Shown: piece by piece, positions 15,689 to 34,166 of the stretch | Layout: each line of letters begins with the position of its first letter | How positions within the stretch are numbered: position 1 is the stretch's first letter | DNA from: a virus | DNA length: 34,166 bases | Reading direction: 5' to 3' (one strand) | Virus record (IMG/VR): IMGVR_UViG_3300021961_000322 | Span: 1 to 34,166 of that record | Made by a program: the position numbers and the translations under genes | The notes under the pieces: model-generated | Told to the model about the DNA's origin: nothing | The model's input: only the letters and a program-made list of their open reading frames with translations | Databases searched by the model: none

Positions 15689-17911
15689 TTATGCCATAAG
15701 TGCTAAAGCACGCATACTGTTTACTGTTGGAACATAGTAGGAATCCACACTGGTCATCACAATCTTCACTGCAAACACACTGAATTGAGTGAAAGTTGAA
15801 CCGTTAGCCACATATTCAAACACACCTGAGCTGTTCAATCCACCCACTACAGTGCTTTCATCATGACCATTTTTGTCAAACTTGTACACCAATTCACCTG
15901 CTCCTAGACTGTTGCTGGCTGCACTCTTAATCATTTGTGTCCAAGGCCGATTCTTAGGTTCTGTGGTATCACCCACACCTAGAAGTTTTCCGTACACAAT
16001 CACATCTGTGCCAGCTGGAATATCGGCATCCAAGAACACCATTAAATCATCTGCTTCACCACCAGTTGGAAGTGACACGAAACGTGTATGATATTTTGCA
16101 TTACCCTTCACATCAGTTGCTTCATAATCCACGGTGATGATGTCATCAGTTCCAGAGACAGCAGCATTAGCTGTCAATGTGATGCTATCACGTGCAGTGA
16201 CCGCACGTACCACACCTATAACCTTACCTTCAGAGTTACGAAGCACTGCACCTGGGATTACTTGGTCAATGAACGCAGTTTCATCACCGGATGTTTTGCC
16301 GGTAATAGTTGTGCTACCAGTGCTAAATGTAGATGTGCCTGACAATGTTCTTCTGGTGCTACGAATCACATTTTCATAACCTACAATTTGTGATTTTGTG
16401 ATGTCAACCACAGGTGAAATATTGGAATTGCTAGTTGAGAAATTTACTTTCACCATTACAGAACCTTCTGTATCGTCCGTGATGTTCAATCCCCCAGCCA
16501 GTGTTTCATATGAATGTGAGTACACAGTTTTTTCTTCACCCAATGTAAAGACACCTTCTTTCTTCATGGGTGTATATGATGCTGGATCCACTTCAGATGA
16601 ATTGTAGATTTTATGTTCAAATGATACAGCTGAGTCATTGTACTCAATGTATGAGATGCCAGGTGCCAAACGATGTAGAAGTTTTCCTTCAACATTATCT
16701 TCATATGGTTCTAATGAAATGATGGCAGTACCTGAGCTTGATGCCGCTGATGTTCTCTTGATTGTTATAGTTTCACCGTCACTGAAGGTACCAGAAACAA
16801 TTTCCACATGAGCCACTTTGTTGTAACGGTCAAAGTTTAACACAGTTCCTGTTGCACTGCTGGTTACACCTGTGAGAGTGTCACCCACCAATACTTCAGT
16901 TGAGTTGGAAGAAATGCCAAGATAATCAATCTTCTTGTTCTTTAAAATCAATGTTCCACTTGATACATTGAAGTTGGCACGATACACCGTGAACTTCATG
17001 TCTGCTGATTCTGAGACGGTCCAATTCACGCTGTTGCTTGAAATGTACAACCGACCAGCAGCGGGTTGTTTGTCAATTTTTTCTTCTGTACCAATTTTGT
17101 TTTGTCCAAGAACTGCTGTCCAAATTTCATATCCTTCACGACCACCGGCAGGCAATAGAACTACAGCATATTCTTCATTGTTCTTCAAGTACACAGGAGA
17201 TTCAAATGTGAATTGTGTTGGTGCCTCAGCATCAGAGGACACATTCACATCTTTAGGATATAATGTTACTGTGCTGAAGGGAAGAATTTCTGTTCCAGGA
17301 TTTCCATTGGTTGTGGTTCGAATTTGTAATGTAATGGGTACATTGGCCACAGAAGGCTTCGTCTTGAAGAATACATCAATCTTGGTGATGAAGATACCAT
17401 TGTTTTGCCCAGACACGAAGAAAGTTTGAGCAACTGGATCTTTGAATGATGTTGTAGATGGATTGACTGTTACAGTACGTTCTACAGATAATTCTCTGGG
17501 TGATGTTGAACGTGCAAATGTGATGTTAGGTGCACGTGTGGATCCTATCTTACCTGTGTCATAAGTGATAGCACCCTTAGATGTGTAGGAGGTAATAGCC
17601 ACACAATCTGTTTCAGCTGTAGGATTTGAAGGATGATTAATCAATGTGAACAGACGAGTTCCTGTCTTGAATGTTTCAGCAGGAATACGAAATACACCAG
17701 ATATTTCACCGTTGTTATCAGTTACAAGATTTCCTCCAAACACTGTAGCAGTTATGTTACGGCAGTGGTCGGTGACAAGTTGTCCGTCAAAGAAAGGATA
17801 CACCCGAGTGTTTGGCTTCAATCCTTTGGCATTGAAGTTCACTGTGGCACTACGCATATAGCTTAGTGGTTCATCAGCAGGTGCTTGTAAATTTGGTGGA
17901 TTAATGGACAT
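15689..17911 (-). CDS. Large virion structural protein (740 residues)
   Basis: The N-terminal ~100 residues contain ATVNFNAKGLKPNTRVYPFF and VFRIPAETFKTGTRLFTL, a beta-rich module widespread in large structural proteins of marine myoviruses. Next come DPVAQTFFVSGQNNGIFITK and VDVFFKTKPSVANVPITLQI-type sequence (about residues 158-200), typical of proteins that accompany DUF4815 proteins. Residues about 340-400 carry a TSSATGTV/FSDGETITI module similar to that in gp13. No enzymatic motif is visible. The gene follows the 1402-residue DUF4815 gene by 12 bases, with an AGGA site before the ATG. It probably forms a peripheral baseplate or fibre-base structure replacing T4 gp9-gp12. Confidence 0.85.
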   Translation of the reverse strand: MSINPPNLQAPADEPLSYMRSATVNFNAKGLKPNTRVYPFFDGQLVTDHCRNITATVFGGNLVTDNNGEISGVFRIPAETFKTGTRLFTLINHPSNPTAETDCVAITSYTSKGAITYDTGKIGSTRAPNITFARSTSPRELSVERTVTVNPSTTSFKDPVAQTFFVSGQNNGIFITKIDVFFKTKPSVANVPITLQIRTTTNGNPGTEILPFSTVTLYPKDVNVSSDAEAPTQFTFESPVYLKNNEEYAVVLLPAGGREGYEIWTAVLGQNKIGTEEKIDKQPAAGRLYISSNSVNWTVSESADMKFTVYRANFNVSSGTLILKNKKIDYLGISSNSTEVLVGDTLTGVTSSATGTVLNFDRYNKVAHVEIVSGTFSDGETITIKRTSAASSSGTAIISLEPYEDNVEGKLLHRLAPGISYIEYNDSAVSFEHKIYNSSEVDPASYTPMKKEGVFTLGEEKTVYSHSYETLAGGLNITDDTEGSVMVKVNFSTSNSNISPVVDITKSQIVGYENVIRSTRRTLSGTSTFSTGSTTITGKTSGDETAFIDQVIPGAVLRNSEGKVIGVVRAVTARDSITLTANAAVSGTDDIITVDYEATDVKGNAKYHTRFVSLPTGGEADDLMVFLDADIPAGTDVIVYGKLLGVGDTTEPKNRPWTQMIKSAASNSLGAGELVYKFDKNGHDESTVVGGLNSSGVFEYVANGSTFTQFSVFAVKIVMTSVDSYYVPTVNSMRALALMA

Positions 17912-17923
17912 AATAATTCCTAA

Positions 17924-20900
17924 TTAAATTGCGTTAACGTCTTGGAAACCAAATGATGATATTGGTTCTATTTCACCACCCTTCCATGCCATGCCACCGC
18001 CGTACACTGAAGCTGGGTCACGTCCAGTTGCACCGCCGCCGCCTCCTCCATATACAGGAGGTGTTTCTTCAGGTGGTGCTGGAGAATCCAATGGCAAGAA
18101 CACTGGGAATCCTTCATCAATGATGGTGGGTGTCACTGAGATGATGGCTGGAGGACCTAGAGCGCCGCCCACACTATCAATCTTGATGGGTTTCAAGTTC
18201 CAATTTTGTTCCACGAACACAGGAACCACAGGTTTTTCTTTCTTCACTGGAGGTGGGGGAGGTGGAGGAGGAAGTACTTCTTCGTATATGATAATTGGCA
18301 TTGGAATTTTTACTTCCACAATTTTTTCAACTTCACGAATTACTTCCACTTGTTTTTCAACTTCCTTGATGATGACTTCAGTGTTGTAGTGATTGATGAT
18401 TTGTGGTTGTGTTCTGTGTTCATACCAGATATCTTCAGCAGGAATTAAACCAATGCTACCTTCATATCCATACACAACATTATTGGTCACGGATACTGAT
18501 TCAGATGCATAAGGGTTTTCTGTGAACACCACGTGTTCATAAGGTAATGTTGCAATTTCACCATCAGCAGGGTAACTCACCAAGTCTGGACGGAAATCGG
18601 CAGCAAGAATGGCTGTTGTGATGCCTGTGTATGTAATTAATCCTGTGGTGCTAGTTGTAGTACCGGTCACTGTGTAGGCTGTGTTGGCTACGAAAGTGCC
18701 TGTGCAATTCACAAGATATAAACGAATCCACTTGTAATTTCCACCACGTGCAATTTCTACACGATGTTCAACTTCACCTGTTGCACCTGATGTGGCTTGA
18801 CTTACAGTTTCACCAATACCGAAGTTGGTGGCACCAACTGTTTGACGAACAACAATCTTGGCATCTGTTGGAGCTAACAATATACTACTGGTGCTAGCCA
18901 CTTCTAAATCAATTGGGTCGGCATCTAAGCGAGGAGAAAGCACGCCTTGATAAATTAAACAATCATTGGTTTCATTGTTCAAGTTGATTTTTTCAGCTCT
19001 ATCAAATGAATCTACTAGAACACCGTTCTTGAATCGTTCTTCACCTGTGTCATTATATATCAAAGCATTGATGGTCTTTTGTTCCAAGAAAGAAAGTTTT
19101 GTGAATTCTTCCAATGAACCCAGACGCTTTTCAATGACACCAATGTCTGCCATGGTGTAACGGCGTTGTAAATCTGCCTTGCTGAAGCTAGATGCATTTA
19201 CAGGACGTCCAGCCAATTTTGCTGCCTTTGGTGATAGAGCAGGGAATGGAGGAAGTTGTAACACACCTAAATCCATGCAATTGCTTGGTAACTTAGGTGT
19301 TAATGGATTTTCAGATGCCAATCCTTGAACCACAGTGAAGTTGCCATCTGCGTCCAACACCACTCTGTCAATACGGGGAAGATTCCATTCAACATCAGTG
19401 ATGAATTCTTCTTGTGGATGAGGAATGTAGAATGGTGTGAATCCTGTGTATGCCTTGGTTGATGCTGTGTATCCAATGGGATTGATGTTGGAAGATGTCA
19501 ATGTAGTTGTGGATGTTGCCACGTTGGCTACAGTGACACGGAAATCTACACAATCACGCATTTCATATTTCTTACCATTGGATGCCATGTAAACAGGCAT
19601 CTTGTGCCAATCTATTTGTGTAGATGTTGGGCTACTACCTTGTGCAGGCAATGGATATGAATCTACATTGAAGAAGGCGCCAGCACTATGAACAAAATGG
19701 TCCACACGAACAACATATCTACGTTCTTCTAAGAATCCTCCATCAATGGTTCCTAGATTGTAGTGGCTGTCTGTTTGGCCATTTTTAATTCTAAATTGTC
19801 CTGTGTAGTCATCGCCTGAAGTGTTGATGGTGGCCCAGCTTGTTTCCACATCTCCTGCCTTCACATAATCCACAGCGTAAATGTCATACAATCCAAGTGA
19901 AGCGGGTGTTGTGAATCTCTTAGCTACCACATCCCAGTTAGGATGAGCAACACGTAATGGTGTAGAGCTAGTTGTGGTAATGGATGCAGCAGAATTGCCA
20001 GTTAATACTACAATAGGTCCAGTAGATGTTCCATCATTTCTTGCTGTTACAGAAGAAACAGTACCAAGCAACGCATTGGCACTAGTGTAAATTTTGCTAC
20101 CAACTGGACAATCTTCGGTTGTAATGTCCACAGAAGCATTATATGAGAAGGCAATGTTTGCACTTCCTGTGGATGCTGTTGCTGTTAAGTAGGTACCAGA
20201 ACTTACATATCCTAACTTCTTGGTTGTTTGAATACGAACATATCGGTCGTTACTCAACGTTTTTGTTCGTGGGGTAACATCAGAACGAGAAACAGAAGCC
20301 AACACAGACACAGTAGGACTTCCAGTTAAACTACCTGGAGTATAGATGTTGAAGTTGATGGTGTTGGTACCAGGTGTAACTGTTGTATTGGCGCCCACCA
20401 TGTTGATAACTTGTCCCGCTGTGTAAATGGTGCTACCTGTGCTAATAGTAGTTTCAGCAATAACTATGAATTCTGTTAGAATTGTTGCATTGGTTGATGT
20501 CGTGAATGCAAAGTTTTCATCACCTGAAACGCTAACAGAAGCAGAACCGTTGGCTGCTACTGCTACAGAAGTGAAATGTTTTCTGTAGACAAATGAATTG
20601 TCTAGTGTGTTAGGTTGTAATGTTTTAACGTAATCGTAAGTGGTAGGAATAATGTAAGGTGCAAATGAACTTTCTTTCAATACAGCAGGTGTATCAGCTA
20701 CGTCTGCATGGAAATCTTTTGAAGCATTATCAAAATAAATGCCACGAATATCACTTACACTGCCACCTGTCATTTCAATATCATAAAGATATACACGATA
20801 ACGTGCGGTTGCAGAACCTGATGTTCCTGAAATGTATTCTACAGTGGCAATACGAGCAGTACCTATTTCTGAACCTGGAGCTGATGTTGATGAGTAAGTA

Positions 20901-22132
20901 CCTGCTGTTACTGCACCTGCTGCGGCGCCACGTAATGATACCAATGATCCATTAGAAGGAATGTTACCACACATTTCATCTACAATCAAATAGTTTCCAT
21001 ATGCAGTAGATAAACGAACAGCGGTTCTTTCATTGGTGTCTGTAGGCTTTACAACATCAAGATATTTTGTGGCAAACAATTCATATTCAAATCCACGAAC
21101 ATATGCCTTACCTGGTTCCACACCAAGAGCAAGTTTTCCATTGTCGCCACCTTGTCCTGATGTGTAGACACCATCTGTGTCATCATCCACTAAGTGTTCA
21201 CGAATATGATAGTTGAATGGACGCACAACATAATCACCTGATTCATCATAGGTTCTACGTGCCAAAGTTTTATTTAATTCAGCATATTGTGTTCTATCAT
21301 ATCTACGACTGATGGCACCTGCACTTACTTCGTAAAGTACGAAGAAACCTTCTACTGTTTCATTGATGGGATAAGCTACAAGTTCTGTAGATAATTTGAA
21401 ACGGTCAGCACCAGGTGCGGTATAGTTGAAGGCACCTTGTGCTGGATCCAACAATGTTTCGTCATCATCAGATGTGATGACTTCTTCAGATACTAAAAAT
21501 CCTACTTTTTTGCTTGGTGTTTCGCTATATTTTTCTAATACAATGGTTTGTGCGTAGTGACGAATGAAGTAACCGTTGGCATACACAACACCATCACCCA
21601 CAGAGAATAAAGAACCTTTAGTCACAGGTGTTTGTGAAGCATCTGCAATAATGACTGTTATGTTTTCATCATCATCTTGTGTTAATACTTCATCGGCAGC
21701 AAATGTTTCAGTGGTTCCTGAATCACCTTGTGAAACGTATTGTAGAAACAATGCCTTATACGTAGTGGTTTCACTACCAGTAGCAACTTTCTTCACAACA
21801 GCTTTCACGTTGTCATCAGCACCAACAAGAATTTTTCCTTCCAATGCTAGTAGAGCTGCATCGGTGATTTCTTGACCGGCTGTATCTGTATCTAAAATTT
21901 TAATAACATCAACACCAAAATTTGTGGATTCTGGGCAACCAGAAATAACAGAACCTTCCTTGAAGATGTTATCACCAAATCGTTTAATTTGGTCTTGAAG
22001 GATGGTTTGTAATTGTGTTAATTCACGAGCTTGTACAGCAAAACCAGGCTTGAACAAAACTCTGTGGAAGTTTTTGTCCAAATCAAAATCATCATAATAT
22101 GGATAGGTGTTGAGATTTAGCTTAGTGGCCAT
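17924..22132 (-). CDS. DUF4815-type giant virion structural protein
   Basis: This 1402-residue protein has the DUF4815 hallmark near its start: YPYYDDFDLDKNFHRVLFKP, then AVQARELTQLQTILQDQI and FGDNIFKEGSVISG at about residues 12-66. The long middle part is beta-rich and carries one TSGATGEV module. Near the C-terminus a charged segment with EVEKQVEVIREVEKIVEVKI could be a coiled coil. It is followed by eight consecutive prolines (about 1288-1295) and a Gly-rich end with six glycines. Family members are major baseplate-associated proteins in marine T4-like phages, whose exact position is not settled. The gene is located where T4 has genes 9 and 10, but I see no clear sequence similarity to those. 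Confidence 0.88.
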   Translation of the reverse strand: MATKLNLNTYPYYDDFDLDKNFHRVLFKPGFAVQARELTQLQTILQDQIKRFGDNIFKEGSVISGCPESTNFGVDVIKILDTDTAGQEITDAALLALEGKILVGADDNVKAVVKKVATGSETTTYKALFLQYVSQGDSGTTETFAADEVLTQDDDENITVIIADASQTPVTKGSLFSVGDGVVYANGYFIRHYAQTIVLEKYSETPSKKVGFLVSEEVITSDDDETLLDPAQGAFNYTAPGADRFKLSTELVAYPINETVEGFFVLYEVSAGAISRRYDRTQYAELNKTLARRTYDESGDYVVRPFNYHIREHLVDDDTDGVYTSGQGGDNGKLALGVEPGKAYVRGFEYELFATKYLDVVKPTDTNERTAVRLSTAYGNYLIVDEMCGNIPSNGSLVSLRGAAAGAVTAGTYSSTSAPGSEIGTARIATVEYISGTSGSATARYRVYLYDIEMTGGSVSDIRGIYFDNASKDFHADVADTPAVLKESSFAPYIIPTTYDYVKTLQPNTLDNSFVYRKHFTSVAVAANGSASVSVSGDENFAFTTSTNATILTEFIVIAETTISTGSTIYTAGQVINMVGANTTVTPGTNTINFNIYTPGSLTGSPTVSVLASVSRSDVTPRTKTLSNDRYVRIQTTKKLGYVSSGTYLTATASTGSANIAFSYNASVDITTEDCPVGSKIYTSANALLGTVSSVTARNDGTSTGPIVVLTGNSAASITTTSSTPLRVAHPNWDVVAKRFTTPASLGLYDIYAVDYVKAGDVETSWATINTSGDDYTGQFRIKNGQTDSHYNLGTIDGGFLEERRYVVRVDHFVHSAGAFFNVDSYPLPAQGSSPTSTQIDWHKMPVYMASNGKKYEMRDCVDFRVTVANVATSTTTLTSSNINPIGYTASTKAYTGFTPFYIPHPQEEFITDVEWNLPRIDRVVLDADGNFTVVQGLASENPLTPKLPSNCMDLGVLQLPPFPALSPKAAKLAGRPVNASSFSKADLQRRYTMADIGVIEKRLGSLEEFTKLSFLEQKTINALIYNDTGEERFKNGVLVDSFDRAEKINLNNETNDCLIYQGVLSPRLDADPIDLEVASTSSILLAPTDAKIVVRQTVGATNFGIGETVSQATSGATGEVEHRVEIARGGNYKWIRLYLVNCTGTFVANTAYTVTGTTTSTTGLITYTGITTAILAADFRPDLVSYPADGEIATLPYEHVVFTENPYASESVSVTNNVVYGYEGSIGLIPAEDIWYEHRTQPQIINHYNTEVIIKEVEKQVEVIREVEKIVEVKIPMPIIIYEEVLPPPPPPPPVKKEKPVVPVFVEQNWNLKPIKIDSVGGALGPPAIISVTPTIIDEGFPVFLPLDSPAPPEETPPVYGGGGGGATGRDPASVYGGGMAWKGGEIEPISSFGFQDVNAI

Positions 22133-28300: not shown

Positions 28301-28412
28301 CTAGAAACTTATAATAGTGTTCTAGGAAGGTGACAAATTGCGGGTATTCAGCCCGAACAAATTCAGGAATTTGTCCTGAAATTAAATGATGTAGCTTTCT
28401 CTTAATGGACAT
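25332..28412 (-). CDS. 7: Baseplate wedge gp7-like protein with repetitive acidic Ser/Thr tail
   Basis: Residues 1-532 resemble the C-terminal third of T4 gp7 (1032 residues): FVRAEYPQFVTFLEHYYKFL, then RRLIKYINQYYEAKGSETAT and FRFMFNDTATVKY match the T4 region with KGIEASYKFLFKVLYNEE, and SSHPAGFKMFSNLLL matches T4 HPVGFGF. The T4 N-terminal beta-propeller-like part is absent. GSGY-type repeats occur at about 352-432. From about 555 to 995 the protein is a repeat array with units such as SDTVTTTDVLEKDISFSLTD. The last 30 residues are aromatic and Gly-rich (WVDSYFVNGRYSASPYVEG). The gene lies directly after gp6, sharing one base, as in T4. I am confident of the gp7 relationship; the role of the tail is unknown. 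Confidence 0.82.
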   Translation of the reverse strand: MSIKRKLHHLISGQIPEFVRAEYPQFVTFLEHYYKFLENQGQAHDVLLSNMDWMDIDETLDVFIPYFRNQFAYDMPSDTVLDNRRLIKYINQYYEAKGSETATEMFFRFMFNDTATVKYPGDYLLRASDGRWSRKRFIKVDTTEFPDENIYELKEKVITLYYLEYIEGAGNFARTVTTRCLDVYETSRPNIYQLQVDINPSYQFPDDISADLTLAPSLGNYDTHVYVQYVDDETITYGTISKQLTSVLSVDEPGSKFRRDDTYFVSETGLEGLYFAGDYTEVTTGSAAYAYELLQNNAIVRVVKTENTFAEQYFLEDYTLFGDYASAPTRGKIKLLSIVDSGEKFLVRKTGVIESVTILDGGSGYAVGATAVNLVGDGSGAEFRVLVSGGKITQVTVVNGGSNYSTEINPATGLPLTSLTASGSGTGAVFEVNISTGYTPVKTFSVDFNNGRSGSSTAAITFATGHIYHAPGEYVDNAGFVSDIIVLQDNDYYQPYSYVIETTEQLSNWKSTYLKSSHPAGFKMFSNLLLTGDITPPEVVVEDDFNQVDVEDLPYRALEDTVTISEDVAKAISRPVTTDTLSTSDNVEVALVYLQYPSDTASTSDVLTLDTSIGTSDVVTTGDVLTQDVEKSLSDSTSTTDEAIFSVAISVTDSVTITDSLRHDFDQQDDVTSDLQEDVSTVDVTSFDVEKTLSDTFTTTDSTALETETLYTDSVSTSEVTTLITDMVFTDTITVSDTTSVNFNQQDDVTSDLQEDVGLNDTLAFALDNVILDSQPVTDNITSLSVELEKTENVITSDVLVKDVELTVSDSYSTIENVVLETDNMLSDTISASDSLDVLIVIPVSVSDTVTTTDVLEKDISFSLTDSISLSDTAIRSFNQEDDASSDLSESLSLADAATLEINQVSTDNISTSDVLVKEIALGISEVVTLADDLTNDFSQNNDATSDFLEEITVSDATAFDIDYVVPADTTTVSDANVLEPLKNISDTQNITDAGGTIWVDSYFVNGRYSASPYVEGDYVGSGYSL
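25428..26750 (-). repeat. Array of about 19-20-residue Asp/Ser/Thr repeats in the gp7-like tail
   Basis: Units have a core of S/T-D-x-I/V-x-T/S-x-D followed by hydrophobic and acidic positions. At intervals of 78, 135 and 60 residues a marker FxQxxDxxSD-type segment returns (FDQQDDVTSDLQED, FNQQDDVTSDLQED, FNQEDDASSDLSES, FSQNNDATSDFLEE). Two of these are almost identical in DNA (26143-26180 and 26377-26414, 37 of 38 bases by eye). Confidence 0.85.
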
Positions 28413-30298
28413 TATACTTCAGTGTATGGACGGCTACTAATAGATAAACCAGGAACAATATTTGCTGCTGAATTACTTTGACTATCATCTAAAGTTAAAA
28501 TGCTATTTCGTGATGGTAATGCTGCTACAGCAAATGCAGATGTGTCTGATGTTCGTACCACAGCACTTGAAATGTTTTGATATAAAGGTTGTGGACGTAC
28601 ATATAGGTATAACTCTGACACATTACCAACATACTCAGTAACAATAACATTTTGTAGGGTCACAATACCAGTATTGTAATGAATGGTACCGACGGTCAGG
28701 ATAGGTAAATTGGTATCTTTACTTATAAATTTAATGGTGCCACTTCCATCATCGTTGCTAACAGCATCATCACTAAAATCTTGTAGGTATCCTTCATACG
28801 TTAAGTCATTGATGGTAGTTAAAAAATTGCTGCTTCTAAATGTTTCTGGGTCAATGGCTGTTAAGAAATTCAACACTTTAGAATATCCAGATGTGTTGTT
28901 AAGACCGATAGGTATTCTTTTTTGTAGTCGCATTTTAAACAACGAACTAACAATTGAAGTGTTAGTTTGTTTAACACGCTCAGACAATTTCGATAGGAAA
29001 AATGTTCTATCTAAAGTTCCTAACTCATTGTCAAAATAATCTTCAATGGCAGCGGACACAAGAACAGAAATATCCGAGGCTTTTAATGATGTTAATTTTG
29101 GATTGTAATTTACAATACCTTCTAAACCAAGATAAACATATTCAGGATCCACAAACTCATGTTTAATGCTCATCACACTTCTTGGACGCAATATGGATTC
29201 CTTAATGAAATCTTGGTCTGCAGTGGTGATAACAGAATTGGAGACCGGATCTACAGAAATAAACACTGAACCGTAAACAGGAGGATCATTTTCTTCTCCG
29301 CCCCATACAGTTACTTCGCGTGCTTTCGGAAAATTCTGTTTGATAATGGTTCTGTAATCTTCAGCTGTGACGGCACGATTTCTGTTGGCATTATATCTAG
29401 GTGCATTGAAACGAATACTGTCAACGCTTTCTTTACCGGTTCCTCCATTGGCGGGAGAAGTAACAGTGATGGTTACCTCATCTTCTCCGTCAATATCACC
29501 CACCAAAGAAAAATCTCTGGCACCGTTGGGAGCTGCTCCCTCTGAAACGATATATGTGACGGTTACAATGTTACCAGGTGTTAAACTTGCTCCCACATTG
29601 TCATCACCAAACACGAGTTGGTATTGCCCTTCATTGTTTTCTTCCACCCAAAACACTTTGCTGGTGCTTGTGATGTCAACAATTGTAGATGTTTTCACCC
29701 AGTCTGTGGATGCTAGATTTGATGATGATGTTTGTACCGACACTAAAATAGTAGTGGTATCTACATTGTTATTTGGAATAATTAATGGTCCTGATGTGTT
29801 ATCAGAACCAATTAAAAATGAATTGGATAGATAAATGCCTTCAATCAATTCCACATCAGTGAATTCAAACACACCACTTTCATTGAGAGTAGCAGTCTGT
29901 GATTCATTCACGTTGAATGTGAATGATTGTCCGTTAATGGATGCGTTAAACTTCACATCAGGCGTGATGCTTAAAGTAGATTCACTAGTCACATCTTGGG
30001 TAACAATTAAATCCACTTGTGCTTTTGCTGATGTTGTGGAACGAGGGCTGTATCCAAGCATTTTTGCCAGAGAAACCACAGATGTTCTTTTAATGGCGGT
30101 ATCAATGAACATTTCATTGGCTTGTAAATTGGCCAATACAGCATTGTAATGTGTGTTATATGCCAACACATCTAACAACAAACTTAATGCAGAACCCGTG
30201 AAGTCATAGTCAGTGAACTCAGGTTGTGCTGCCAGATAGGTTCGTAAATTAGTTTTAATCGTGTCAAAATCTAATTCTGTGATGTTGAGTTCTGCCAT
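28412..30298 (-). CDS. 6: Baseplate wedge protein gp6
   Basis: gp6 links the wedges into the ring around the hub and is the core of the contractile baseplate. The 628-residue length is near T4 gp6 (660). The N-terminal segment ELDFDTIKTNLRTYLAAQPE, then YDFTGSALSLLLDVLAYNTH and SLAKMLGYSPRSTTSAKAQV, is diagnostic, as are VTAEDYRTIIKQNFPKAREV and VFISVDPV in the middle. The ATG shares one base with the gp25 stop and the stop shares one base with the next ATG, so gp25, gp6 and the gp7-like protein are probably translated together. Confidence 0.96.
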   Translation of the reverse strand: MAELNITELDFDTIKTNLRTYLAAQPEFTDYDFTGSALSLLLDVLAYNTHYNAVLANLQANEMFIDTAIKRTSVVSLAKMLGYSPRSTTSAKAQVDLIVTQDVTSESTLSITPDVKFNASINGQSFTFNVNESQTATLNESGVFEFTDVELIEGIYLSNSFLIGSDNTSGPLIIPNNNVDTTTILVSVQTSSSNLASTDWVKTSTIVDITSTSKVFWVEENNEGQYQLVFGDDNVGASLTPGNIVTVTYIVSEGAAPNGARDFSLVGDIDGEDEVTITVTSPANGGTGKESVDSIRFNAPRYNANRNRAVTAEDYRTIIKQNFPKAREVTVWGGEENDPPVYGSVFISVDPVSNSVITTADQDFIKESILRPRSVMSIKHEFVDPEYVYLGLEGIVNYNPKLTSLKASDISVLVSAAIEDYFDNELGTLDRTFFLSKLSERVKQTNTSIVSSLFKMRLQKRIPIGLNNTSGYSKVLNFLTAIDPETFRSSNFLTTINDLTYEGYLQDFSDDAVSNDDGSGTIKFISKDTNLPILTVGTIHYNTGIVTLQNVIVTEYVGNVSELYLYVRPQPLYQNISSAVVRTSDTSAFAVAALPSRNSILTLDDSQSNSAANIVPGLSISSRPYTEV

Positions 30299-30696
30299 TA
30301 TCGTAATCTCTCTAGTGTAACCGTCAAGGACGTAGGTTGATTGATACCTATAGGTGTGAAGTATATGGAAATTTCATATGAGTTTTCATCTTCATTAGGA
30401 AACACTTCTACCAGTTCCAATGTAATTCTGGGTTCATATTGACTTATGGTGTTCTCAAGGCTTCGTTTGATAGCTAGTGTTGTGATGGCATCCGCAGGCT
30501 CAAACAACAAATTATATAATGGGGACCCCACATTGGGTTGAAACAATCGCTCACCTAAATTAGTAAACAACAACAGTTTCAAAGATTGTTTAATGGCATT
30601 TGCATCTACTTTTTTCAACACATCCTGAGTCTGAGGATGTGCCGCAAAAGATAAATCCAAGTCTTTGTATAGTTTGTTAGGTGAAAGAATAGGCAT
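30298..30696 (-). CDS. 25: Baseplate wedge protein gp25
   Basis: gp25 belongs to the GPW/gp25 family, binds the gp6 dimer and nucleates sheath assembly. The length of 132 residues equals that of T4 gp25. The family core is visible: LLLFTNLGERLFQPNVGSPL, FEPADAITTLAIKRSLENTI and the EPR motif at residues 88-90, then ITLELVEV. No Shine-Dalgarno sequence precedes the ATG, and a late promoter is only 10 bases upstream, so the transcript from that promoter would have a leader of about five bases. In T4 gene 25 lies away from gene 5; here it lies between genes 5 and 6. Confidence 0.95.
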   Translation of the reverse strand: MPILSPNKLYKDLDLSFAAHPQTQDVLKKVDANAIKQSLKLLLFTNLGERLFQPNVGSPLYNLLFEPADAITTLAIKRSLENTISQYEPRITLELVEVFPNEDENSYEISIYFTPIGINQPTSLTVTLERLR

Positions 30697-30717: not shown

Positions 30718-33255
30718 TTATGCGAGAGCTATGAAGTTGTTGAATTCTTTTTCACGGTCAGCCAACCCATTGAATCCGCCGTTCACAACTCTTGTGACAG
30801 CTCGAACAGCAGGGAGGGCTCCTTCATCAGCTTTATTATTCAAGTTTCTTGAATTCCAGAACCAAGCAGCAGAAAGAAGTGGGTATTTGTCAGCTACCAA
30901 CTCTGGATTAGCCACAACATCTTCAGGAACAAATCTTCTAAATGCAGCATAATTCTGTTTTCCTGTTAATTGAATGTATCCGCGACCACGATATCTGTAT
31001 CCATCTCCTGACGCTTCATCACCATTACCGATACGATTGGCGTATGCTCGGCTACCTATTCTTTCTGGCTGACGTTCATATTGTCTAGCTATTTCATCAG
31101 TTGGGAAATATTTACCAAATACTGAACGTAACGACTTGGCTGAATAGTTTAAGTTCTCTCTAACAGCTCGGAAATGACCGCTTTCATGCGAACATTGTGC
31201 CAAGAAGTGTGATAGTCTTTGTGGTGTGTTGATGTTGAATTTACATACTACTTCTGGAATTTGTTGACGAACAGTTTCTGGAATTTTACCTTTCAGTTTA
31301 TTAATAAATGCAGCCATTTCAGCTGACACACAATCTGAAGATGTTGTGGGTGCAGCTGGCGGTTCTTGGCAACTATCTGGTAGATGCACATACTTCACTT
31401 TACGGTTTGGATTTGGATATTTCACAAAACATCCGCATCCTGAACGATTAAAACCGGCTCCACCTGTAGTGTTGCCTTCAATTGTTTTGATACGTTTATC
31501 TGGGGGAGCATCAGGATAAATACCTGCCACAATTCCAATATGATTGGCATGATTAGGACGAGATGGATCACCGTAATATAATATGGCAGCACCTAGTTTA
31601 GGTGTATCAGACAACAATCCTTTTTCTCTTCCCCATCTATCCCAAGCGGCACAAGCAGCAGGCCCATAACTCTTTGGCGGAGCAGTTGCACCAGCAGCCG
31701 TCCACCAGGAATATACAGCAGAAGCACACCATTCTGCACCTTTACCTTCTTTCTTAATTCGGTCGGCATGGAAACCACCAGAACCAGTAGCGTTCACCAT
31801 GGTGTCAATGATGCCGGATTGGCCAGGAGGAAGTTCTCCTCCCCCTAATTTACCACCCGTATTATTGGCAGCTCCTCTTGAGGTTCCTGTCTCCAACATT
31901 CCCACATACTTCACGGCTTCATTAATAACTGCCTGTGCAAGTTCGCAGGTGGATTGTTGAGGTTCTGGATTTGAAGCTGGAGCAGAAATCACTTCTCCGA
32001 CATCTGCTTCCGATTGTTTCAATGAAGCATATTCTTGTGACATGGGATCATCTGATTGTCGTGCTTCTAAAGCTTCGGCAAAATATGCAGCTCGGTCTTC
32101 GGGAGTTAATGTGAATCCAGGAGGAGTTATTTCTGGTTCTTCAGGAGTTTTTTCATCTACTGGTGATAATTCAGGAACAGTGAAGGCTGGAACTGGTTGA
32201 GGAGGTGCAACTGACAATGCTCCCTTAAATGTTCCTTGGAATATGTTACCTTCTGTAATGGGACTAGAGAAACTTGTTTTTGTAGTTGCGCCAATTTTAA
32301 CATTGGCACCGGATTTCATTAATATGTCAGTAGAACTATTAACTGTGAAATCTTCATTGGTATGAACCGTGATGTCTTTTCCTGCAGCCATGTCAATTTT
32401 ACCAGCCACATTCAATTCATAATCTCCATGAACGTGTGTTTTTAAATCACCATCTACTTGAAGATTACAATTGTTTTTCACTAAAATGTTACAACTACCT
32501 TCAACTGTGATGTTGGCTTTTCCTTTGATGTTGATGAATCCATTACATTCAACAATATGATAATCATCACCAACAATACGTCGAACCATGGTTCCTGCAC
32601 CGTCAACTTCAACAAAGGTTCCTTTGTTATGATACACATGCAATCTTTCTGATCCAGGTGAATCATCTATTTCAATTAGATGTCCATTTTCTGATTGTGT
32701 AACGTGATTGAATGGGTATTTTGGGCCATATGGAATTTCTGGTTGTTCCCAGGTTCCCCCATCTAAGGCCACATCTACTAATAAAGTTCGTTCATCTTTC
32801 TTCTTTTGAACAATTGTTTCTTGAACTTTTTGATTTCTTGCTAAACGATTAGTATCAGGTTCATTAATGTATTCTGGTAATGGATATTTTCTATTTGGGT
32901 CTTGAAAACCAAAATTGTTTCTATTTTGAATTTTATCATAATAGGAACGAGCCATCACACCACCTATGGTTCCAATCATCAATGGTTCTTGACAATCTTC
33001 TCCATCACGGAAAAATCCAACCACCCAGGTACCTTCTACAGGTCCTGTGGGTGTGGTGCCTATGCCAGACATGGCAGCTGAAGTGATGGGTTGCATGGGA
33101 TATGCCCATGGCAAACTCTCGGTAGGAAGTTCCACCTTGTCAGCATTATGATAACCGACAATACGTACTTTACATCTTCCTAAAAAGAGAGGGTCATTTC
33201 TATCTTCAACAACACCAACCCACCACCAAAATCCGTTACCGTAAATGTTTTCCAT
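30718..33255 (-). CDS. 5: Baseplate hub/spike gp5-like protein with CHAP-like and GH19-like lytic domains
   Basis: This 845-residue central spike protein has the gp5 plan but different enzymes. Residues 1-100 form the OB-fold (WWWVGVVEDRNDPLFLGRCK, VEGTWVVGFFRDGEDCQEPL). Residues about 185-330 form a beta-helix spike with short V-x-G steps (NGFINIKGKANITVEGSCNI). A Pro/Glu linker follows. Residues about 437-626 look like a CHAP/NlpC-type cysteine hydrolase with Cys510 in AEWCASAVYSWW and His572 in NHANHIGIVAG. Residues about 641-845 look like a GH19 lysozyme/chitinase-type domain with Glu691 in SHESGHF and Glu747 in GNGDEASGDGYRYRGRGYIQ. T4 gp5 (575 residues) has one lysozyme domain between OB-fold and helix. 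Local digestion of peptidoglycan during injection is predicted. AGGAATTGAGAT precedes the ATG. Confidence 0.92.
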   Translation of the reverse strand: MENIYGNGFWWWVGVVEDRNDPLFLGRCKVRIVGYHNADKVELPTESLPWAYPMQPITSAAMSGIGTTPTGPVEGTWVVGFFRDGEDCQEPLMIGTIGGVMARSYYDKIQNRNNFGFQDPNRKYPLPEYINEPDTNRLARNQKVQETIVQKKKDERTLLVDVALDGGTWEQPEIPYGPKYPFNHVTQSENGHLIEIDDSPGSERLHVYHNKGTFVEVDGAGTMVRRIVGDDYHIVECNGFINIKGKANITVEGSCNILVKNNCNLQVDGDLKTHVHGDYELNVAGKIDMAAGKDITVHTNEDFTVNSSTDILMKSGANVKIGATTKTSFSSPITEGNIFQGTFKGALSVAPPQPVPAFTVPELSPVDEKTPEEPEITPPGFTLTPEDRAAYFAEALEARQSDDPMSQEYASLKQSEADVGEVISAPASNPEPQQSTCELAQAVINEAVKYVGMLETGTSRGAANNTGGKLGGGELPPGQSGIIDTMVNATGSGGFHADRIKKEGKGAEWCASAVYSWWTAAGATAPPKSYGPAACAAWDRWGREKGLLSDTPKLGAAILYYGDPSRPNHANHIGIVAGIYPDAPPDKRIKTIEGNTTGGAGFNRSGCGCFVKYPNPNRKVKYVHLPDSCQEPPAAPTTSSDCVSAEMAAFINKLKGKIPETVRQQIPEVVCKFNINTPQRLSHFLAQCSHESGHFRAVRENLNYSAKSLRSVFGKYFPTDEIARQYERQPERIGSRAYANRIGNGDEASGDGYRYRGRGYIQLTGKQNYAAFRRFVPEDVVANPELVADKYPLLSAAWFWNSRNLNNKADEGALPAVRAVTRVVNGGFNGLADREKEFNNFIALA

Positions 33256-33256
33256 A

Positions 33257-34166
33257 TTATCTCAATTCCTTTTGATAAGAATCTTTCATGACTTCCAAAT
33301 ACATTATATGCTTGTTTGTTGAAAACTGATGTCGAATGGCTGTGATAAGATAATTACCTGACAGATAAGGGTCAGTTAAATCACGACCAGTAGCCGCACT
33401 TAAATCACGTTCTGTGGATTTTGGAATGTTAAGTGCCACCACTTTACCCACTTCAATGTCTGTTCTTCCAGGTACTTCAATAGTTAAATGCAATTTACCA
33501 GCTTCATACATTAAACTGTTTCTTTGAGCCACCCATTTTTCATATAAAGGGTCTTTGTTTTCATCAAACATTCCGTATTGTTTAGTTCGTACACGACGAT
33601 ACATATCTGGTTTTCTAGGTAAATCACGTGGAAATGTTTGTGATTTACCTTGGTCATGTAGATTCAATACTTTATCATGATACTCATATTGATTATGAGG
33701 ATTTTCATAATATTGTTTCAATGTGATGTCATGTGTAATTAAATTGCTAGTGTAATATCCATAATCTTGTGCTTCAAACACATCAAAAAATGTTGAAGGA
33801 CTTATGTTGGAAATTCTTTTGAATTGCGCACTAACATTTAAAGTTTCATCAGATGATGCACTTGCACTATATGTGAATGTATCATAGATGTTAGATACAC
33901 CTAATCGAATCAAATGTTCAATGCTAGTTAAATAGAAATTTTTGTTGCTTTCATAAAATACTACATTGGGTGCATTTTTATAACTTCTTGCACAAATCCA
34001 ATTTATCAGTTTCAATGGAGACCAAAAAGGAGACACCACCGAAGTGCTAGATGCATGTTCTTCTAGAATTAACAAGTTCTTTTTATCCTTCAAATACTTA
34101 TCAAAAATAGTTTGAATCATCTCATGTGTTTTTCCAGAAAACTTTTTACTCACTCGTGTAATGTTA
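33257..34166 (-). CDS. 27: Baseplate hub protein gp27-like (5' truncated by window edge)
   Basis: The reading frame is open to the window edge, so the gene probably starts outside. A GTG at 34153 has no ribosome binding site and I regard it as internal. The 302 visible codons include SPFWSPLKLINWICARSYKN, which resembles hub proteins of marine T4-like phages, and a C-terminal domain with LTIEVPGRTDIEVGKVVALN and SGNYLITAIRHQFSTNKHIM, the type of domain at the end of T4 gp27. gp27 trimers bind gp5 and form the base for the tail tube; the gene ends one base before gp5, consistent with this partnership. In T4 gene 27 lies elsewhere. Assignment rests on pattern and neighbour, not on alignment. 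Confidence 0.75.
   Translation of the reverse strand, partial: NITRVSKKFSGKTHEMIQTIFDKYLKDKKNLLILEEHASSTSVVSPFWSPLKLINWICARSYKNAPNVVFYESNKNFYLTSIEHLIRLGVSNIYDTFTYSASASSDETLNVSAQFKRISNISPSTFFDVFEAQDYGYYTSNLITHDITLKQYYENPHNQYEYHDKVLNLHDQGKSQTFPRDLPRKPDMYRRVRTKQYGMFDENKDPLYEKWVAQRNSLMYEAGKLHLTIEVPGRTDIEVGKVVALNIPKSTERDLSAATGRDLTDPYLSGNYLITAIRHQFSTNKHIMYLEVMKDSYQKELR

Follow-up and report, generated by a model that had tools for sequence, protein, structure and literature searches.

Can the central spike of a T4-type virus carry two different wall-cutting enzymes beyond its needle and still work as a spike? The question is raised by one gene in the window, meaning the whole 34,166-nucleotide stretch analyzed here (IMG/VR virus record IMGVR_UViG_3300021961_000322, positions 1 to 34,166). 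T4 gp5 has one GH24 lysozyme before its beta-helix, as the first-pass annotation correctly stated; this enzyme is located between the OB domain and the helix. That annotation placed two putative hydrolases on the window protein, both C-terminal to the helix, and reasoned that such a spike would need a different geometry or a proteolytic release step. Domain order, a fold model, and GH19 matches agree with the two predicted enzymes, one peptidase-type and one glycan-cutting, both past the beta-helix. The suggested need for release does not hold up against known systems, as described below.

Architecture of the Spike and Its Neighborhood

The gene lies on the minus strand at 30718..33255, exactly where it had been annotated, and the parts and neighbors given below lie on the same strand. 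It encodes an 845-residue gp5-type central spike, or tail-associated hydrolase, from an ATG start with an SD-like AAGGA upstream. Residues 1-160 (32776..33255) form the OB (hub) domain, which matches PF06714 at 2.3e-29 over residues 37-152 and aligns with T4 gp5 residues 4-123. The needle, a triple-stranded beta-helix at residues 169-340 (32236..32751), aligns with T4 gp5 residues 376-561. The E-values for this stretch are significant, and its match to PF22178 (5.8e-5) is under the curated cut-off. Overall, T4 gp5 chains match the spike at 5e-46. No GH24 lysozyme is present between the OB domain and the helix; the two are contiguous, as in lysozyme-less gp5 of the KVP40 type. As KVP40 illustrates, a GH24 domain in that position is a trait of T4 itself and not of the wider gp5 family. 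The helix is followed by a Pro/Glu-rich linker of 96 residues (341-436; 31948..32235), which precedes the CHAP-type domain. The first part of this linker can be aligned with the linker of two relatives bearing an M15 peptidase (L031 and L032), and its dN/dS is about 0.1-0.24.

The neighboring genes fit a baseplate locus. Upstream, a gene that runs to the window edge (33257..34153) matches the tail protein family phrog_350 at 4e-44; its position suggests a T4 gp27-type hub. Downstream are the baseplate wedge genes gp25 (30298..30696; PF04965, 1.6e-17) and gp6 (28412..30298; phrog_219, 2.5e-153), and no PAAR gene is present between the spike gene and gp25. With its OB domain, helix, and baseplate-gene neighbors, the 845-residue protein is, on sequence grounds, a T4 gp5-type central spike, and by homology to T4 gp5 it would be a trimer. 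Elsewhere in the window, two open reading frames, at 17927-22132 (1402 aa) and 15692-17911 (740 aa), match different parts of the profile phrog_358, a family of unknown function.

The NlpC/P60-CHAP-Type Domain

Residues 437-629 (31369..31947) are predicted to form a cysteine peptidase/amidase domain of the NlpC/P60-CHAP type, a prediction that draws on an AF2 model, VIA-align and BFVD structure matches, and PHROG profiles. A shallow profile of six close homologues was replaced by an alignment of 47 sequences, drawn entirely from the window and IMG/VR. Its invariant segment positions (W79, C80, A81, H142, G164, and N165) include Cys510 (31726..31728), His572 (31540..31542), and Asn595 (31471..31473) of the protein, which are predicted to be the nucleophile, the general base, and the third catalytic residue, respectively. 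The first two had already been singled out, correctly, in the first-pass annotation. Asn595 belongs to an EGN motif with Glu593, which is kept in at least 90% of the 47 sequences. A Cys-rich segment that had been suggested to take part in release or geometry (Cys607/Cys609) does exist; it is not conserved, Cys607 being Gly in the related contig L004.

The AF2 model of residues 437-629 built on the 47-sequence alignment (pLDDT 85.9, pTM 0.86) has a predicted NlpC/P60 hydrolase fold; structure prediction of each domain had been proposed as a check. VIA-align matches it with a Z of 13.6 to 7cfl, a Clostridioides difficile NlpC/P60 autolysin (rmsd 3.0 over 121 residues), and its match list consists mostly of NlpC/P60 peptidoglycan hydrolases, with the T6SS amidase Tse1 near a Z of 10. 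In BFVD, the structure matches are phage proteins of TIGR02594 and CHAP type (best 2e-9), and Foldseek against the PDB yields weak matches alone (best 5.9e-3).

Profile searches, proposed as a further check, gave a divided answer. PHROG endolysin profiles match the segment at about 1e-7, whereas the window's own segment matches nothing in Pfam or NCBIfam. A sequence search of the PDB with this segment returned nothing relevant. A close relative (L005) reaches 7.8e-5 and 23.5 bits with the CHAP family PF05257, below the curated cut-off of 26. The domain is assigned at the level of the NlpC/P60-CHAP superfamily only. It is divergent and has a large N-terminal insertion. Weak alignments through the motif were obtained with endolysins of Streptomyces phages and with a CHAP protein of a Microcystis phage, and all three of these proteins that were tested are PF05257 members. 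When the profile of six close homologues was compared with the CHAP domain of phages PhiW-14 and nACB2, the motif was aligned but the match probability was 9.5%, a low value probably due to the shallowness of both profiles.

The GH19 Domain

The assignment of residues 640-845 (30721..31338) as a predicted GH19 domain of the muramidase type is secure at the sequence level. The domain matches the PWe1 endolysin (9ms6, 4.8e-36), PaGH19Lys (9eoi, 4.7e-35), and the SPN1S endolysin (4ok7, 2.6e-26), and the profile check proposed for it gave a match to PF00182 above the cut-off (2.1e-6; 28.2 bits versus 25.5). PaGH19Lys is an assayed muramidase with the catalytic pair E51 and E60, the latter tested by mutation (PMC12329726). 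Glu691 (31183..31185) aligns with its Glu51 and Glu700 (31156..31158) with its Glu60, and both are invariant in alignment A5. The first-pass annotation had paired Glu691 with Glu747. The former stands; the latter is rejected as the second catalytic residue because the alignment to 4OK7 and 9EOI gives Glu700 as the partner. Glu747 is within an NGDEASG stretch, part of which is absent from the SPN1S endolysin. In the pairwise alignment, the nine listed active-site positions of PaGH19Lys (H50, E51, E60, Y103, Q127, T129, I187, N188, and R197) correspond to H690, E691, E700, Y738, Q762, T764, V824, N825, and R834 of the spike. Eight are identical, and Ile187 is replaced by Val824.

Recurrence, Selection, and Exchange Past the Helix

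The CHAP-GH19 C-terminus was found in 12 further IMG/VR contigs from different metagenomes (L001-L011 and L116), one of which is cut within GH19 (L008) and two of which are without the 5' part (L009 and L010). The fusion to a spike recurs in at least five lineages, and the same single-frame fusion in other contigs shows that it is not an assembly artefact. For diverged pairs with unsaturated synonymous change, dN/dS is 0.06-0.17 in both enzyme domains, values that place both under purifying selection as judged from codon comparisons. The spikes of L004 and the window are 98% identical in the core and 77% identical in the CHAP-type domain (codon ~440 onward), and DNA identity falls where the enzyme half begins. 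This contrast suggests recombination at the linker/enzyme boundary. A scan with the window family found no relatives in GTDB genome contigs, and phage records contained no DNA-level match. The gene psbA, sought as a cyanophage marker, was not found.

Loci for gp5 were drawn with a core profile, and 79 were examined outside L029 and L030 (78 from the draw plus L116). An M15 motif is present past the helix in 12 of these 79 loci, which were not dereplicated, and most of the remainder are without a C-terminal enzyme. PF08291 matches were obtained in all six M15 loci tested, four of them above the cut-off. The nearest core relatives have an M15 peptidase at the same post-helix place, with a partly homologous linker, or nothing there, which argues that this site is an exchangeable cargo position. 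A 404-residue spike in one contig (L037:5998-7212) ends inside the linker without an enzyme, with gp6 further downstream, and is possibly a natural case of cargo loss.

Whether C-terminal enzymes exclude a PAAR tip was also considered. As a general rule this was rejected, given that on three short contigs (L038, L039, and L040) a spike with a C-terminal M15 peptidase is followed closely downstream by a PAAR-motif gene. Searches of window-type contigs and of the nearest M15-type contigs, which reach 101 kb but may all be fragments, revealed no PAAR gene. It is conceivable, if rather doubtful, that in the window type up to six flexibly clustered enzymes (three each of CHAP type and GH19) replace the rigid, PAAR-tipped needle end. 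In that case, digestion of the wall would proceed from the spike's front and not from its flanks.

Proposed Mechanism and Alternatives

Our preferred reading, to which we assign a probability of about 0.82, is that the gene encodes a virion central spike in which each chain bears a C-terminal arm consisting of a predicted NlpC/P60-CHAP peptidase/amidase followed by a predicted GH19 muramidase. We infer its presence in the virion, its activity, its bond specificity, the order of action, and the lack of proteolytic release. Tail contraction would drive the helix through the outer membrane and carry the tethered enzymes into the periplasm. Given a trimer by homology, the needle would bring in each enzyme in three copies. 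One enzyme would act on the peptide part of the wall (stem peptides or cross-links), the other would cut the glycan strands at the MurNAc-GlcNAc bond, and the wall would thereby be opened locally for the tube. The 96-residue linker could let the enzymes hang below the helix or fold back beside it. A two-domain AF2 model based on five close homologues has a pLDDT of 43 and is unusable for locating them.

The alternatives concern what becomes of the C-terminal half. It might be cleaved off or separately translated to act as a free endolysin or a virion-released hydrolase, with the spike as its carrier. The long Pro/Glu-rich linker ahead of the enzymes would suit such an event, the gene of PhiW-14 and nACB2 is split between the two enzymes, and T4 gp5 itself is proteolytically matured by cleavage after its lysozyme. 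However, there is no SD-preceded internal start before the CHAP domain, the only candidate being a GTG at codon 611, within the domain, and the relatives' contigs have a separate Amidase_2 gene; together, these observations make a lysis role less likely. Moreover, VgrG3cp is a VgrG that acts with a muramidase as a fused C-terminal domain (PMC9927483), and the hub gp15 of Anabaena phage A-1(L) has two wall-cutting activities in one baseplate protein, as shown by assay (PMC10966104). These precedents indicate that proteolytic release is not required, and the M15 peptidase that relatives have in this position also speaks against the need for it. We consider the free or released enzyme unlikely. 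A short Amidase_2 open reading frame (184-aa open frame) is located at 95730-96101 of L005 (IMGVR_UViG_3300021093_003813) and is possibly the lysis endolysin of the lineage.

It is slightly less likely still that either domain is inactive as an enzyme or has a wall-binding role only. The CHAP-type domain, with its divergence, its large insertion, and the absence of a Pfam match in the window, would be the natural suspect; however, Cys510, His572, and Asn595 are invariant, the GH19 active-site residues are kept, and purifying selection acts on both domains. Chance resemblance is contradicted by the E-values and structure matches. Misassembly of a spike gene with an endolysin gene is already refuted by the same frame in independent contigs from different metagenomes, and the probability left to these two explanations is negligible.

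Comparison with Known Systems

T4 gp5 shares the OB domain and the triple beta-helix with the window spike and differs in its single GH24 lysozyme before the helix. It is not the nearest comparison, since the spike core, as judged by alignment, is of the KVP40 type. The gp5 of Vibrio phage KVP40 and the spike of D479 have a core without an inserted enzyme that is 42-49% identical over residues 7-300, and the KVP40 gp5 record annotates the missing T4 lysozyme. In contrast to the window protein, these spikes (421 and 388 aa) are too short for C-terminal enzymes and have a PAAR gene downstream. Genes of ~161-167 aa are located between gp5 and PAAR in KVP40, D479, and D510 (loci L019, L016, and L021); those of KVP40 and D510 have no Pfam match above the cut-off.

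Complementary enzymes on one spike have precedents. The gp5 of Synechococcus phage BUCT-ZZ01 (UTS51949.1, 939 aa) is a T4-type spike with two predicted complementary hydrolases, a GH19 domain (PF00182, 1.7e-8) and an M15-type domain (PF08291, below cut-off). Its core pieces are 42-56% identical to the window spike, and its M15-type arm shares 33-38% identity with the M15 arms from IMG/VR. However, its GH19 domain is between the OB domain and the helix, the T4 position, so that past the helix there is a peptidase only, of M15 and not CHAP type. Delftia phage PhiW-14 and Acinetobacter phage nACB2 have a CHAP/TIGR02594 domain followed by GH19 on a gp5-type spike, the GH19 domain being assigned by alignment in both (PhiW-14 scores 24.4 bits in Pfam, just under the cut-off). 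In these phages, unlike in the window, both enzymes come before the helix, and a gene break separates them (OB-CHAP/GH19-helix). The family phrog_1259 had been considered as an earlier example of a CHAP domain beyond the helix; it was dropped because its CHAP segment matches the OB-CHAP gene found in PhiW-14 and nACB2. In a Melnitz phage, the OB domain is accompanied by a VanY-type match that falls below the cut-off, and a weak match of M15 type lies beyond the helix. These cases indicate that phages have put a glycan-cutting and a peptide-cutting enzyme, both predicted, on the same needle in three or more domain orders, which makes it possible to test whether the position of tail enzymes relative to the helix (before or past it) is an adaptation to the wall type of the host.

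The post-helix position is likewise known elsewhere. In V. cholerae VgrG3/VgrG3cp, a peptidoglycan hydrolase is fused past the spike helix, and this C-terminal enzyme varies by strain (PMC9927483). Such evolved spikes differ in belonging to a bacterial T6SS, in carrying one enzyme (lysozyme-like or pesticin-like), and in being accompanied by immunity proteins. The A-1(L) enzymes differ in being on the hub and not on the spike. The window spike indicates that T4-type spikes have an exchangeable cargo at their end, much as evolved VgrG spikes of type VI secretion do. The order OB-helix-linker-CHAP-GH19 was not found among the phage records and papers examined; what is new, among the records examined, is that both hydrolases are distal to the needle. 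The spike is not categorically new, its parts, their pairing, and the post-helix position each having precedents. In this T4-like virus from environmental metagenomes, known parts are arranged in a new way; other phages, and the injection machines of bacteria, combine them differently.
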